In this document: positions 22,714 through 61,243 of the stretch, piece by piece
Numbering within the stretch: position 1 is the first letter of the stretch
Layout: each line of letters starts with the position of its first letter
Source: Halorhodospira halophila
GTDB taxonomy: Bacteria > Pseudomonadota > Gammaproteobacteria > Nitrococcales > Halorhodospiraceae
Length of the DNA stretch: 64,000 nt
NCBI RefSeq assembly: GCF_016653405.1
Contig: NZ_NHSN01000017.1
Span: 124,001-188,000 of the forward strand
Direction: 5' to 3'
The notes under the pieces: generated by a model
Seen by the model: only the letters and a program-made list of their open reading frames with translations
What the model was told of the DNA's origin: nothing
Databases searched by the model: none
Made by a program: the position numbers and the translations under genes

Positions 22714-23868
22714 CTATCGATAGCGCAGATGATCCCGTGTCAACTGATCCAGCGACGTAATCCCCATCAGCTTCATGTCACGGATGACCTCGTTGTAGAG
22801 ATTGTCAAGCGCTTTCTCGACCCCCGCCTGGCCACCGGCGGCCAGCGCGTAAAGGTACAGGTGACCGCCGGAACAGGCCGTGGCGCCGGCAGCAAGCGCC
22901 TTGAGGATGTGAGTACCGCGCTGGATGCCGCCATCACATATAATGTCGATCTGCCCGCCGACGGCGTCCGCGATTTCCGCGATCTGATCGAAGGGCGCCC
23001 GCGAGCCATCGAGCTGCCTTCCCGCATGGTTCGAGACCATGATCGCCGAGGCACCGATATCCACCGCCCGCCGCGCATCCTCCGGGCTCATCACGCCCTT
23101 GAGACAGAACGGTCCTCCCCATTGGGCGCACAACTGCTCGGCGTGCCGCCAGGTCAGCCCCTGATCGAGCATGGTCGAGAAGTACTCGCCCACCGAGATG
23201 GGGACTTTGCTCCCCTCGCGCACGTGGGTGCTGAGCTGCGGCAGGCTGAAGGGCTCCCTGGTGTAGTAGTTGAATGCCCAGCGCGGGTGCCAAGCGAAGC
23301 TAGCCAGGCTGCGCAGCGTCAGTCGCGGCGGTGAAGTGAAACCAGTGCGCAGGTCCCGCTCACGATTCCCCCCGGTGATGGTATCCACGGTCAGCGTCAG
23401 AGCCTCGAAACCGGCGGCCTGGCAACGCTCGATCATCGCCCGGTTCAGCTCGCGGTCCTTGTGGAAATAAAACTGGAACATCTTCGGCGTGGAGTAACGC
23501 TCGCCGATCTCCTCAATGCTGACCGTACCGAGCGACGAGATACCGAAGAACGTATGGTATTTCTGCGCGGCTGCGGCCACCGCGCGCTCACCCTGGTAGT
23601 GAAACAGGCGCTGGAGCGCGGTCGGCGAGCAGAATACGGGCATGCCCAGCCGCTGCCCCATCACGGTCACCGAGGGGTCGACCTCCTCCACCCCGGCGAG
23701 CACGTTCGGTACCAGATCGCACCGCTCGAAGGCCTGGGTATTGCGCCGATAGGTGATCTCGTCCTCGGCCGCCCCGTCGATGTAGTGGAAGATGGGCCCG
23801 GGCAACCGCTTGCGGGCCAGCTCGCGAAAGTCACTTACATTACGGCAGTCTTTGATGCGCTCGAACAT
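22714..23868 (-). CDS. lldD: FMN-dependent L-lactate dehydrogenase / alpha-hydroxy-acid oxidase
   Basis: FMN enzyme of 384 residues in the alpha-hydroxy-acid dehydrogenase family, expected to oxidise L-lactate and pass electrons to quinone. Motifs: FHYIDGAAEDEITYRRN near 30, FCSPTALQRLFHYQGE near 83, TVDTITGGNRERDLRTGF near 167, and SNHAGRQLDGSRAPFD near 275 with the active-site His and Arg. DGGIQRGTHILKALAAGA binds FMN phosphate. The usual family motif reads SNHGGRQLD; here the first Gly is Ala. ATG 23868 follows GAGGGAGAGG. The substrate is assigned by family and could be another 2-hydroxy acid. It is 130 bases upstream of the transglutaminase gene. Confidence 0.88.
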   Translation of the reverse strand: MFERIKDCRNVSDFRELARKRLPGPIFHYIDGAAEDEITYRRNTQAFERCDLVPNVLAGVEEVDPSVTVMGQRLGMPVFCSPTALQRLFHYQGERAVAAAAQKYHTFFGISSLGTVSIEEIGERYSTPKMFQFYFHKDRELNRAMIERCQAAGFEALTLTVDTITGGNRERDLRTGFTSPPRLTLRSLASFAWHPRWAFNYYTREPFSLPQLSTHVREGSKVPISVGEYFSTMLDQGLTWRHAEQLCAQWGGPFCLKGVMSPEDARRAVDIGASAIMVSNHAGRQLDGSRAPFDQIAEIADAVGGQIDIICDGGIQRGTHILKALAAGATACSGGHLYLYALAAGGQAGVEKALDNLYNEVIRDMKLMGITSLDQLTRDHLRYR

Positions 23869-24053
23869 GCACCTCTCCCTCGGCTTCGCGGCTATCCACC
23901 GCGTCCCTGGCAATCTCATCGCCACCGACCATCCCGCGCGACGCGACGCGAGGGACCAGAGTAATCACCTATAGCATAGCGCCGGTGCATGCCTGACAAC
24001 CCGCTTCGATTGCGGGAGAGCGACAAAACGGGGAGGGGGAGAACTTCCAGCCA

Positions 24054-24829: not shown

Positions 24830-24858
24830 GTGACGGAAGACCGCACTCCGCCTACACT
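24830..24858 (+). promoter_or_regulatory. Candidate promoter of the cytochrome-ABC1 kinase pair
   Basis: GTGACG (-35) and TACACT (-10), 17 bases apart, end 40 bases before the ATG at 24899. Each hexamer matches four of six consensus positions. Confidence 0.35.
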
Positions 24859-24898
24859 GCAGAGATAGAGACGCCGGTCTGAGCAAGAGGAGTGCACC

Positions 24899-25423
24899 AT
24901 GCACGTGCGGTACTGGATGTTGGTGATCATCGCCGCGGGCCTGCTGGCCCTTTCGGGCTGCAACGATTCATCCGCCCCTGAAACCCCCGAGACGGACGAG
25001 ACGGGCGATCAGGAGGCGCATTTCGAGCCGGCCGAGGATCCGATGGAGGGCGCCCGCGAGGAGGCGGCAACCGAGGAAGGAAACAACAGCGTGTCGACCG
25101 ACGAGGCGACATCGGCCGATGAGGAAGCTGAGGCACAGCCAGTGGCCGACCAAACCGAACAGGGCAATGAAGACCACCCCGGACTCGCCATCTACCGCAG
25201 TGGCACCGCTCCGAGCTGCCGTTCGTGCCACGACCGCGGCATCGCCGGTGCGCCGGTCCTCGGGCAGGAGGCAGACTGGGCGGACCGCTCGCGCGACATC
25301 GACGAGCTGCTCGACGCCACCCTGCGGGGCAAGGGCGCCATGCCGGCCTACCGCGGGCGGGCCGATGAGGACGAACTGATCAAGGCCATCGAGTACATGC
25401 TCTCGACCCTCGACAACGCATGA
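24899..25423 (+). CDS. Cytochrome c domain lipoprotein with acidic linker
   Basis: Exported mono-haem c-type cytochrome of 174 residues. A signal peptide ends in the lipobox LSGC (Cys20), so the mature protein is probably lipid-anchored. An Asp/Glu/Thr-rich linker follows (about 21-95). The C-terminal class I cytochrome domain has the haem motif CRSCH near 105 and GAMPAYRGRADEDEL, whose Met is the likely axial ligand. The site AAGAGGAG precedes ATG 24899. Its last four bases overlap the start of an ABC1-family kinase (ATGA), suggesting joint expression. The acidic linker fits a protein exposed to high salt. Electron partner unknown. Confidence 0.88.
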   Translation: MHVRYWMLVIIAAGLLALSGCNDSSAPETPETDETGDQEAHFEPAEDPMEGAREEAATEEGNNSVSTDEATSADEEAEAQPVADQTEQGNEDHPGLAIYRSGTAPSCRSCHDRGIAGAPVLGQEADWADRSRDIDELLDATLRGKGAMPAYRGRADEDELIKAIEYMLSTLDNA

Positions 25424-26790
25424 GCGGCAGCGGTGACGAGCGCCGCAGCCGGGCTGTACCCAGCAGCCGGTGGGGTCGCCTCTATCACTTGGGGCGGGCC
25501 ACCGGCGATCTAGCTCTGGGGATCGGCTGGAGCGGCCTGCGCGACCTGACCGGGGGCGAAGAGGGCCAGGGCCGGATCGAGCTCTCCCCGGAGCGCGCCC
25601 GGCGGATTACCGACCGACTCGGGCGCATGCGGGGCGCCGTGATGAAGATGGGCCAGTTGATGTCCATGGACGGCACCGACGTACTGGCCCCCGAGATCGC
25701 GGAGATCATGGGCGCACTGCGCCATGAGGCGGAGGCGATGCCGCTAAGCCAGCTCGACAGCGTCCTGCGCCGCGAGTTCGGCAAAGGGTGGCTCAAGCGG
25801 TTCCGTGATTTTGACTTCACCCCCGTAGCCGCCGCCTCGATCGGCCAGGTCCATCGTGCCGTGGCCGCCGACGGGCGGGAACTGGCGCTGAAGATCCAGT
25901 TCCCCGGGGTGCGCGAGAGCATCGACAGCGACCTGGACAATCTCGGTTTCGTGATGCGTCACAGCGGCCTCATGCCGCGCGGCCTACGCGTCGAGAGCCT
26001 GCTCGACGAGGCGAGGCGCCAGCTTCACCAGGAGGCCGACTATGAGGCGGAAGCCGACGCCCTGGAGGCCTACGACCGGGCGCTGGGCGACGACCCGGAG
26101 ATCACCCTGCCCGGCGTGCACCGGGACCTGACCACCCCCCGGGTGCTGGCCATGGACTATGTCCACGGCACCCCGGTCGATCAGCTGGCCGGTCGGGGCG
26201 GCGAGCCGGCTTCCCTGTGCGATCATGCGGCCTCGTTGCTCAGCCGGCTGGCGTTGCGCGAGCTCTTCGAGTTCCGCCTGGTGCAGACCGACCCCAATTT
26301 CAGCAACTTCCTCTACGACGCCGAACGCGGCTGCCTGGTGCTGCTCGATTTCGGCGCCACGCACTCGGTGCGCCCCGAACTGGTCGAAACCTATCGGCGC
26401 ATGGGGCGCGCCGCTCGGGATCGGGACCGTGAGGTCTTGCAGTCGTGCGCACGGGAACTCGGGTATCTGGAGCCTGGCGCGTCAGCGGAGCAGGAGGGGG
26501 CGCTACTGGAGCTGCTGGAGATGACCAGTGAGCCGCTGCGTCACCAAGGGGCCTACGACTTCGGCGCGTCGGACCTGTTCGAGCGGGTCTACCACCGGGG
26601 CCGGACCATGTTCTTCAGCGACCGCTTCGCCGGGACGCCAGCCTCCGATACCCTGTTCCTGCACCGCAAGTTCATGGGCACCTTCATGCTCTGCCGGCGC
26701 CTGCAGGCACGGGTCGACCTGCGCGGCCTCATCGACCCGTACCTGGCGGACACCGGGGTCGACTCGCCACCGCGGCCGACTACGGGGTAA
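25420..26790 (+). CDS. ABC1 (AarF/ADCK-type) atypical kinase
   Basis: Atypical protein-kinase-like protein of 456 residues. The family landmarks are RGAVMKMGQLMSMDG (KxGQ motif, about 80), an Ala-rich nucleotide loop AAASIGQVHRA, the catalytic-site Lys in LALKIQFPGV, VQTDPNFSNFLYD near 290 and the metal-binding LLDFGATHSV. This group is separate from the true UbiB encoded at 59582 in the same window. It has no C-terminal membrane helices. ABC1 proteins support quinone synthesis and other lipid-related processes. Translational coupling to the cytochrome lipoprotein suggests a respiratory link, which is inference. Confidence 0.88.
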   Translation: MSGSGDERRSRAVPSSRWGRLYHLGRATGDLALGIGWSGLRDLTGGEEGQGRIELSPERARRITDRLGRMRGAVMKMGQLMSMDGTDVLAPEIAEIMGALRHEAEAMPLSQLDSVLRREFGKGWLKRFRDFDFTPVAAASIGQVHRAVAADGRELALKIQFPGVRESIDSDLDNLGFVMRHSGLMPRGLRVESLLDEARRQLHQEADYEAEADALEAYDRALGDDPEITLPGVHRDLTTPRVLAMDYVHGTPVDQLAGRGGEPASLCDHAASLLSRLALRELFEFRLVQTDPNFSNFLYDAERGCLVLLDFGATHSVRPELVETYRRMGRAARDRDREVLQSCARELGYLEPGASAEQEGALLELLEMTSEPLRHQGAYDFGASDLFERVYHRGRTMFFSDRFAGTPASDTLFLHRKFMGTFMLCRRLQARVDLRGLIDPYLADTGVDSPPRPTTG

Positions 26791-28270: not shown

Positions 28271-29209
28271 CTAGGCGATCCCGTGGAGGTAGGCCCCGGC
28301 GACCAGCCCCGCGCCGGCGACGAGGGCGAGCAGCAGCTGGAACACCCCGGTACGGGCCAGGCAGCGATTGTAATCCTCGCCGCTGCTCGCACCCATCAGC
28401 GAGCGCCAGATGCGCACCCCGAAGGGCAGCACGGCCAGCCCCAGGGCCGCACCGGTCCACGGCACCCCGAACGCGGCCAACCCGAGCAAGCCCAGCGCCA
28501 CGCCAGCCAGCAGCCCGCCGAACAGCCAGACCGATCCCAAGGGCCCTAGCAGGATGGCCAGCGTCCAGCGCCCGGCCTCACGGTCTCCCTCGCGGTCGCG
28601 CAAGTTATTGACCAGGAGCACCGCGGCCGCGGGCAACCCGACGGCCAGTCCCATCACCAGCGCCGGGGGGCTGATCGCCCCCGTATACAGATAGACCACA
28701 CCACCGACGGCAACCAGCCCGAAGAAGAAGATGACGAACAACTCGCCGAAGGGGCCGCGTGAGATCGGGAACGGCCCCCCGGAATACGCGTAACCGGCCA
28801 GCACCGAGAGGATACCCAGCACCAGGATCGGCAACCCGCCGATGGCCACCAGGTAGGCACCGCAGACCAGGGCCAGAGCAAAGGCGCTGTAGGCGGCCGC
28901 CATGACCTGGCGCGGGGTGAGCCAACCGCGCTCGGTAACCCGCACCGGACCGATCCGCTCGGCGCTATCGGTCTGATTGAGGGTGTCGGCGGCATCGTTC
29001 TGCAGATTGGTTCCGATCTGGATCGCCGCGGTGGAAAGCGCCGCAACCAGGGTCACGTCCAGGCGCAGGACACCACTTTCCACCCAGCCCACAGCGGAGC
29101 CGGCGAGGATCGGGGACAGCGAAAGCGGCAGCGTGCGCGGCCGGATCGCGTGCCAGGCGATCGTTGGCCAGGACGGGCGCGGGGACGTTTGCGTCATCGA
29201 CCGATCCAT
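28271..29209 (-). CDS. menA: 1,4-dihydroxy-2-naphthoate polyprenyltransferase MenA
   Basis: Membrane UbiA-family enzyme that attaches a polyprenyl tail to 1,4-dihydroxy-2-naphthoate, giving demethylmenaquinone. The 312-residue protein has about nine hydrophobic segments and two Asp-rich prenyl-diphosphate sites: NDAADTLNQTD near 71 and NNLRDREGDREAG near 202. The N-terminus WHAIRPRTLPLSLSPILAGSA is typical of MenA rather than UbiA. It completes the pathway begun by menFDHBCE at 2917-10032, some 18 kb away. Start may be ATG 29209 or ATG 29197; neither has a clearly better ribosome site. Confidence 0.93.
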   Translation of the reverse strand: MDRSMTQTSPRPSWPTIAWHAIRPRTLPLSLSPILAGSAVGWVESGVLRLDVTLVAALSTAAIQIGTNLQNDAADTLNQTDSAERIGPVRVTERGWLTPRQVMAAAYSAFALALVCGAYLVAIGGLPILVLGILSVLAGYAYSGGPFPISRGPFGELFVIFFFGLVAVGGVVYLYTGAISPPALVMGLAVGLPAAAVLLVNNLRDREGDREAGRWTLAILLGPLGSVWLFGGLLAGVALGLLGLAAFGVPWTGAALGLAVLPFGVRIWRSLMGASSGEDYNRCLARTGVFQLLLALVAGAGLVAGAYLHGIA

Positions 29210-59582: not shown

Positions 59583-61243
59583 TGATCGGACCGCGTCGCC
59601 TGTTGCGCCTGACCCGGATCCAGCTGGTGATGCTCCGCAACGGCGTCGACGACGTCGTGTTGGCGGCCCCCATCTTCCGCCCGCTGCGCTTTCTGGTCAT
59701 CTTCATGCCCTGGCGCTGGGTACGGCGCAAGGTCCCCCGCGGGGTGCGCGTCCGGCGTGCCCTGGAGGAGCTGGGACCGATCTTCGTCAAGCTCGGGCAG
59801 ATCCTGTCGACGCGCCAGGACTTGCTCCCGGCCGACGTTGCCCGTGAGCTGGCGCGGCTACAGGATCGCGTACCGCCGTTCCCCCATGAGGATGCCCGGC
59901 GCATCGTCGAGCGGACCTACGGTTGCCCCATCCAGGACGTCTTCGCCCACTTCGAGGACACCCCCATCGCCTCGGCCTCTATCGCCCAGGTCCACGGCGC
60001 GCAGCTGCACGACGGCAGCGAGGTGGTGGTCAAGGTGGTACGCCCGGGCATCCCGGCGGTCATCCGCCGCGACCTGGACCTGCTACATACCGCCGCCGCC
60101 CTGGCCGAGCGCTACGTACCCGACGCACGACGTCTGCACCCGGTGGACGTCATCCGCGAGTTCGAGAAGAACCTCTACGACGAGCTCGACCTCATGCGCG
60201 AGGCGGCCAACGCCTCGCAGCTGCGGCGCAACTTCGAGAACTCGGAGCTGCTCTACGTGCCAGCCGTCTACTGGCGCTACACCGGGCGCAACGTAATGGT
60301 CATGGAGCGGGTGCACGGGTTGCCGATCAGCGACATCGAGGCCCTCAAGGCCCACGGCATCGACCTCAAGAAGCTCGCCGAGCGCGGCACCGAGATCTTC
60401 TTTACCCAGGTCTTCCGCGACAGCTTCTTCCACGCGGACATGCACCCGGGCAACATCTTCGTCGACCCCACGCGGCCCACCGAGCCGCGTTACATCGCGA
60501 TCGACTTCGGCATCATGGGTTCGCTGGCACCGACGGACCACCACTACCTGGCCGGTAATTTCATGGCCTTCTTCAACCGGGACTACCGGCGGGTGGCCGA
60601 ATTGCACGTCGAGTCGGGATGGGTCCCGGCAGGTACCCGGGTCGAGGAGTTCGAGGCCGCCATCCGTACCGTCTGCGAACCGGCCTTCGCCCGCCCGCTG
60701 CACGAGATCTCCTTCGCCCAGCTGCTGCTGCGGCTGTTCCAGACCGGCCGGCGCTTCAACATGGAGGTGCAGCCGCAGCTGGTGCTGCTGCAGAAGACCC
60801 TGCTCAACATCGAGGGGCTGGGCCGCAACCTCTACCCCGATCTGGACCTGTGGACCACGGCCAAACCATTCCTGGAGCGCTGGATGCGCGAGGAGCTGGG
60901 CCCGGCGGCAGCGCTGCGCAACATCCGCAAACAGCTGCCGGAGTGGGGGGACAAGCTACCGGAGCTGCCCAACCGAATCGACCGCGGGCTGGACGACCTG
61001 GCCAGCATGCGCGCGGAACTCCACCGCCACTGCCAGGAGATGGAACAGCTGCGTCGGGAGGTCGACCGGGGCAACCGACGGGTCTACGCCGCCATCGCCG
61101 GGGCTGCGCTGATCATCGCCGCCGTGCTCAGCCACACCGGCGAGGGGACGCCCGAGGCCTGGGCCGATGTGCCCCCGGCCACCTGGGGCCTGGGCGGACT
61201 GGGGCTGATGGCTTTGGTTCTGGCCCTGCCGTGGCGGCGTTGA
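59582..61243 (+). CDS. ubiB: Ubiquinone biosynthesis regulatory kinase-like protein UbiB
   Basis: ABC1-type atypical kinase of 553 residues required for ubiquinone synthesis. [16 protein letters not shown] (KxGQ, about 75) and [12 protein letters not shown] form the N-terminal motifs. [10 protein letters not shown] holds the invariant Lys, [11 protein letters not shown] the catalytic loop and [12 protein letters not shown] the metal-binding DFG. Two membrane helices close the protein (about 500-550). Distinct from the ABC1 protein at 25420, which lacks these helices. Confidence 0.96.

Follow-up and report, generated by a model that had tools for sequence, protein, structure and literature searches.

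Overlapping genes for a predicted tethered cytochrome c551 and a COQ8-type ABC1 kinase in Halorhodospira

Why should the gene of a cytochrome c lipoprotein overlap the gene of an ABC1-type kinase, and what does such a kinase serve in the purple sulfur bacterium Halorhodospira halophila? The question arises from the window, a stretch of 64,000 nucleotides of H. halophila DNA. COQ8, an ABC1 kinase, is indispensable for coenzyme Q in yeast as in people; to our knowledge, its exact action is still unsettled.

Gene pair and tethered cytochrome in Halorhodospira

Both open reading frames were found on the forward strand where an earlier note had placed them, the cytochrome gene at 24899-25423 and the kinase gene at 25420-26790, and the four-base overlap claimed there is the stop/start ATGA at 25420-25423 (+). 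A Shine-Dalgarno-like AAGAGGAG can be read before the cytochrome gene (24885-24892, +) and is itself preceded by a promoter-like block, GTGACG-17 nt-TACACT (24830-24858, +). Among nine genomes of the same genus, seven carry the kinase (E below 1e-180) and five of these seven have the cytochrome gene directly upstream. The order cytochrome to kinase and the four-base overlap recur in all five genomes with both genes, the overlap being ATGA in G000 (the window genome), G006 and G004 and GTGA in G007 and G003. This arrangement exceeds chance. In G001 and G005 the kinase gene has no cytochrome gene with it, on contigs that are unbroken from a divergent upstream gene into the kinase gene, and G002 and G008 are without the kinase. 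G001 and G005 are incomplete MAGs (83 and 77 percent complete) in which no c551-like match, soluble or tethered, was found.

Alignment of the upstream regions of the seven kinase-bearing genomes revealed the promoter-like block in six of them, located before the cytochrome gene in G000, G006, G004 and G007 and directly before the kinase gene in G001 and G005; in G003 it was not recognisable. A generic sigma-70 promoter scan did not call the block, which is therefore taken as a conserved sequence resembling a promoter and not as a mapped promoter. In most Halorhodospira, cytochrome and kinase genes thus stand behind one conserved promoter-like block. Given the overlap in five of five genomes and a block conserved even where the cytochrome is absent, the shared transcript proposed earlier is likely.

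Occurrence of the same pair in other genomes was checked by a scan for CxxCH motifs within 3 kb of the kinase at 70 loci with close relatives. Two Halorhodospira loci alone, L062 and L125, have an adjacent short single-haem cytochrome ORF ending at the kinase start; within the same 3 kb, no adjacent short cytochrome ORF was seen in the Halorhodospira loci L063 and L064. Other CxxCH ORFs (L067, L075, L076, L077, L083, L102, L111, L116, L120, L128) lie elsewhere, on the opposite strand or are of different length. The pair is kept in five of the nine Halorhodospira-group genomes but was met nowhere outside the genus among the 70 loci, and a widespread kinase-cytochrome pair was rejected. Absence of the pair from relatives, named in the earlier note as a refutation, applies beyond the genus but not to most of the genus itself. 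The pair is a genus-level arrangement. Because the kinase is kept alone in G001, G005 and outside Halorhodospira, a direct partnership of the two proteins can at most be optional.

The upstream gene encodes a protein that its sequence identifies as a predicted lipid-anchored copy of cytochrome c551. The protein has 174 amino acids and matches Pfam Cytochrome_CBB3 (PF13442) with 44.3 bits against a cut-off of 27 bits. Its hydrophobic N-terminus ends in LALSGC with the lipobox cysteine at position 21. Inspection by eye revealed such a lipobox, a cysteine after a hydrophobic stretch, in five orthologues (LSGC, LAGC, LAGC, LLAC and LTAC). About 70 D/E-rich residues after Cys21 form an acidic tether, and the 92 residues preceding the haem domain include 25 acidic (D/E) and 2 basic (K/R) ones. 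The sole haem site is CRSCH, residues 107-111 (25217-25231, +), and alignment with 1gks points to Met148 in GKGAMPAY (codon 25340-25342, +) as the likely axial ligand. The lipid-anchored mono-haem cytochrome with a long acidic linker, as the protein had been described, is borne out by these features.

The best PDB match is 1gks, cytochrome c551 (112 bits, residues 95-171), and like c551/c5-type proteins the cytochrome has one CxxCH, an axial methionine and a domain of about 78 residues as in 1gks. The same genome carries a second c551 copy (L194) of 102 residues with an ordinary signal peptide, whose mature part, compared by eye, is the 1gks sequence of H. halophila. The haem domain of the tethered protein is 67 percent identical to this soluble copy; however, it comes with a lipobox and a long acidic tether, whereas soluble c551 has a cleaved signal peptide. 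In view of the similarity to 1gks and of the soluble copy in the genome, the cytochrome at 24899-25423 looks like a membrane-tethered version of the c551 carrier. The cytochrome called c5 in PMC8877833 is presumably this c551 of H. halophila. A soluble copy occurs in G000, G006, G007, G004, G008 and G002 and a tethered one in G000, G006, G004, G007 and G003. Four of the tethered copies form one clade (support 99/96), and support becomes weak (56/79) when the long-branched copy of G003 is added. A single origin of the tethered copies is therefore likely, not settled. No published account of a tethered c551 was found in a literature search that had subscription papers mostly outside its coverage.

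In Rhodobacter capsulatus, the tethered cytochrome c_y works beside soluble c2. Both c_y and the Halorhodospira protein are tethered versions of a soluble carrier, a likeness drawn by description only. The anchor of c_y, a member of the c2 family, is an uncleaved transmembrane one, whereas the Halorhodospira cytochrome is of the c551 type with a predicted lipid anchor.

A COQ8-type kinase besides UbiB

The product of the downstream gene is an ABC1 kinase of the COQ8/ADCK3 type, a bacterial one that is present besides UbiB. The protein of 456 amino acids matches Pfam ABC1 (PF03109) with 193.9 bits. Compared with solved relatives it scores 270.6 bits with COQ8B, 258.2 bits with COQ8A and 134 bits with a mycobacterial ABC1 protein, and it is colinear with COQ8 over residues 6-437; the UbiB of the window reaches only 74-81 bits with COQ8 chains (COQ8B 74.3). 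Against COQ8, a relative from R. capsulatus scores 292.5 bits, a member of a non-phototrophic gammaproteobacterial clade 257.9 bits and a profile of 34 relatives 389.9 bits.

Four motifs on the forward strand are invariant or nearly so across 34 kinase sequences. These are KxGQ (KMGQ, residues 76-79, 25645-25656; K76, G78 and Q79 invariant), the Ala-rich loop AAAS (residues 137-140, 25828-25839; group consensus), the catalytic-loop signature QTDPN (residues 289-293, 26284-26298; group consensus) and DFG (residues 310-312, 26347-26355; D310 and G312 invariant). The loop reads QTDPNF.N throughout the kinase group and QTDPNW.N in COQ8, QTDPN being the same in COQ8A and COQ8B, whereas UbiB has HADMHPGN. 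Besides all four motifs, the kinase has in common with COQ8A/ADCK3 and COQ8B the N-terminal stretch VPxxRxxRL and the C-terminal LHRKxxGxFxLC; N- and C-terminal stretches common to the kinase group and COQ8 are missing from UbiB. An AlphaFold model of the kinase (pLDDT 76.5, pTM 0.76) has the ADCK3 fold, since Foldseek returned ADCK3 and COQ8A first (4ped, E 5e-28, TM 0.72/0.83). Assignment to the COQ8/ADCK3 family is strong.

The kinase had been described as an ABC1 protein other than UbiB, and in agreement with this it scores 129 bits on TIGR01982 (cut-off 487.55), while the window contains a separate true UbiB at about 59600-60910 (+; core match, 589.9 bits, over the cut-off). UbiB belongs to the same ABC1 superfamily and is an accessory of quinone biosynthesis. 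The kinase was rejected as a UbiB, being under the TIGR01982 cut-off, without HADMHPGN and apart in the tree. This tree of 109 rows, made by a quick method, splits the kinase group from UbiB at 100 percent support; it comprises 26 Chromatiales and 9 alphaproteobacterial loci of the 70-locus set, 7 Halorhodospira, 28 of the 29 loci L165-L193 (L173 was left out for a broken match) and others, L094 standing without a phototrophy label. All 37 genomes tested have a match to the UbiB model, which exceeds the cut-off in 34, falls just below it in G392 and is split in G001 and G005. The kinase is therefore additional to UbiB.

Unlike mitochondrial COQ8, the kinase is bacterial, is without a mitochondrial target, occurs alongside UbiB and is enriched in phototrophs, and its quinone role is a predicted one. 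Several Chromatiaceae have two loci of the COQ8-type kinase, namely Thiocystis violacea, Thiobaca trueperi, Imhoffiella and Thiorhodococcus mannitoliphagus (L075/L128, L087, L091, L101). Among the matches listed in our literature search, with the coverage given above, no published description of this kinase in purple or anoxygenic phototrophs was found, and the main text of a pigmentation screen in D. shibae does not name ABC1, UbiB or AarF (PMC10890935).

Occurrence of the kinase in phototrophs

Named carriers among the 70 loci are Chromatiaceae, Ectothiorhodospira, Halorhodospira, Rhodobacter, Octadecabacter, Pseudooctadecabacter and Roseovarius. As the search behind these loci favours close relatives, the distribution was tested in three samples, with the photosynthetic reaction centre family PF00124 as the marker of phototrophy. 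From the 70 loci, 50 were used after same-genome repeats and Halorhodospira had been left out, and PF00124 was present in 49 of the 50 genomes behind them (over the cut-off in 48); the exceptions are L110, a Burkholderiales MAG, and L094, a MAG that has no more than a fragment. A second sample covered one alphaproteobacterial family with one genome for each of 198 genera and a kinase threshold of E 1e-60. Here 52 genomes have the kinase and 84 have PF00124; both are found in 44, the kinase only in 8, PF00124 only in 40 and neither in 106. PF00124 thus occurs in 44/52 carriers versus 40/146 non-carriers (odds ratio 14.6, p 4.6e-13), with relatedness handled only by taking one genome per genus. 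The third sample consisted of 299 Proteobacteria genomes, 31 of which had a match at E 1e-40; the 20 with at least 300 bits were counted as carriers, and the 11 below (144-191 bits) fall on separate branches of the 109-row tree. PF00124 was found in 7 of these 20 carriers and in 12 of the 279 others (19 in total; p 6e-5, calculated without species-tree correction). The COQ8-type kinase is strongly enriched in phototrophic bacteria.

Many phototrophs do without the kinase: it is missing from 40 of the 84 in the family sample and, near the window, from G002, G008, G027 and G043. Apart from the genome of the window, all gammaproteobacterial carriers of the phylum sample are non-phototrophs; in the tree, they form a clade of their own beside a gammaproteobacterial phototroph clade and a mostly phototrophic alphaproteobacterial clade. 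In R. capsulatus (L113), the kinase gene lies just outside the photosynthetic gene cluster; a PRCH (puhA-like) gene is 3.5 kb away from it and pufLM about 42 kb. A PRCH (puhA-like) gene is also 3.5 kb from the kinase gene in R. viridis (L112:3713-9323). The kinase gene is not generally linked to that cluster of photosynthesis genes: by distances read from the listed coordinates of the family sample, only G445, G512, G593 and G548 out of 44 genomes have kinase and PF00124 on the same contig within 100 kb. No conserved operon partner of the kinase was found in Chromatiales, where its neighbours are DeaD, KsgA, Lon, PCMT, a Na/H exchanger and others, or in 40 further regions of 14-15.5 kb.

Plant chloroplasts use kinases of the same superfamily. 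Chloroplast ABC1K1/PGR6 and the bacterial kinase are both ABC1 kinases tied to photosynthesis, a likeness that consists in superfamily and published phenotype, the tie of the bacterial kinase being co-occurrence with PF00124. High-light phenotypes are reported for a chloroplast ABC1K1 mutant (PMC11613423).

Quinone supply and alternative readings

The window offers a quinone context. A gene for a MenA-like 1,4-dihydroxy-2-naphthoate prenyltransferase (28271-29209, -; TIGR00751, 163.6 bits against a cut-off of 102.15) lies 1.5 kb downstream of the kinase gene, as context of the pair only, and the same block is found in L063, L064 and L125. It stands in a block with DoxX and bacterial PH-domain genes, whose order is conserved across Halorhodospira loci. 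On the other side, at 22714-23925 (-), the window encodes an FMN-dependent alpha-hydroxy acid dehydrogenase, which scores 286 bits on a lactate dehydrogenase model and stays under the cut-off of that model. The MenA-like gene is in keeping with a menaquinone-based chain, since the reaction centre of H. halophila is reported to have menaquinone at both QA and QB (PMC5500672, citing Schoepp-Cothenet 2009). H. halophila is also reported to make ubiquinone anaerobically (PMC6747719). COQ8B with ATP raised CoQ output about five-fold, and COQ3 was phosphorylated by COQ8B (PMC7615680).

A COQ8-like role in quinone supply is proposed on account of this action of COQ8B, of a kinase extra to UbiB, of the menaquinone reports and of the MenA-like gene nearby. 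Its occurrence in phototrophs, the high-light phenotypes of the ABC1K1 mutant and a UbiG (COQ3-type) gene 2.8 kb from the kinase in L223 also speak for the proposal. With moderate confidence, we suggest that the kinase maintains the quinone pool of the light-driven chain, menaquinone in Halorhodospira, and that the tethered cytochrome is a genus-specific add-on to the same chain. Placed at the cytoplasmic side of the photosynthetic membrane, the kinase would act like COQ8 as an ATP-driven accessory, organising or feeding the late quinone-ring enzymes or moving quinone precursors out of the bilayer. Quinone supply, in Halorhodospira largely of menaquinone, would thereby match light-driven turnover and photo-oxidative loss. 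Held at the outer membrane face by lipid and a flexible acidic tether, the cytochrome would be a short-range carrier, taking electrons from the bc complex or some donor enzyme towards the reaction centre, much as c_y does in R. capsulatus. The two genes would share a transcript because their products serve the same chain, not through contact. The earlier note had suggested that the kinase might tune quinone or lipid supply to a cytochrome-dependent branch; the quinone role fits the nearest characterised relatives (COQ8), but the pair is no general system. Against the proposal speak the lack of an operon partner across lineages, the 40 of 84 phototrophs without the kinase, the non-phototrophic gammaproteobacterial clade with it, and a cytochrome lost or never present in two of seven kinase-bearing Halorhodospira.

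It is possible, though doubtful, that the genes are incidental neighbours, a cytochrome duplicate having landed between promoter and kinase in the ancestor of Halorhodospira and using that promoter, with no common function. Such a history would agree with the position of the promoter-like block, immediately ahead of the kinase in genomes that lack the cytochrome, and with a pair limited to one genus, but the tight overlap was retained in five divergent species with kinase identity down to 66 percent.

Rather unlikely, in our view, is a kinase that protects membrane quinones or lipids under light and singlet oxygen, phototrophs being merely the most exposed organisms. The evidence includes TIGR03643, a small protein family for which we know of no function and which is presumably a neighbour of photolyase genes. 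In the phylum sample it occurs in 10/20 kinase carriers (one of the ten, G301, below the family cut-off) versus 13/279 others (p 1.0e-7), mainly in the non-phototrophic gammaproteobacterial clade, and it directly adjoins the kinase in G065, G523 and G482 (e.g. L215:6283-7925 and L235:6083-7614, from unrelated genomes). The side differs, a sign that the two genes came together independently. In the non-phototrophic alphaproteobacterium G411 (L223:3088-8210), the kinase gene is followed on one strand by a cryptochrome-like gene, an FAD oxidoreductase gene and UbiG (COQ3-type), the last 2.8 kb away; glutathione peroxidase adjoins the kinase in G240 and G125. The TIGR03643 link and the neighbours in G411 support a broader light or oxidative-stress reading. 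However, only 2 of 10 TIGR03643 neighbours tested were photolyase-like, the link in the family sample (10/52 carriers versus 9/146 others, p 0.011) is weaker than that to phototrophy, and the window genome has no TIGR03643. Among the matches listed in our literature search, no paper linked ABC1 with ChrR and singlet oxygen, and the Vibrio blue-light papers held no ABC1.

A direct functional pair, in which the kinase acts specifically in the maturation, lipidation or quinone coupling of the tethered cytochrome, agrees with the overlap in five of five genomes and the shared promoter-like block but is highly improbable, as the kinase occurs without the cytochrome in G001, G005 and every non-Halorhodospira locus of the CxxCH scan, and soluble c551 occurs without a linked kinase in G000, G006, G007, G004, G008 and G002.

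Maintenance of the quinone pool of the light-driven chain remains the preferred reading, and it may be extended, speculatively, to the family. The ancestral task of a proteobacterial COQ8-type kinase besides UbiB would be to keep up the quinone pool in membranes that are photosynthetic or exposed to light; mitochondrial COQ8 would derive from this phototroph-associated branch and not from UbiB, the chloroplast ABC1 kinases would be analogous, and the operon with a tethered carrier for the menaquinone chain would be the extension made in Halorhodospira. In bacteria, a COQ8-type protein that occurs together with UbiB and follows phototrophy offers tractable, clean genetics: the kinase, the light and the type of quinone (menaquinone or ubiquinone) can each be changed independently of the others. 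The kinase also bears on the descent of mitochondrial COQ8, as the heir either of UbiB or of a second branch.
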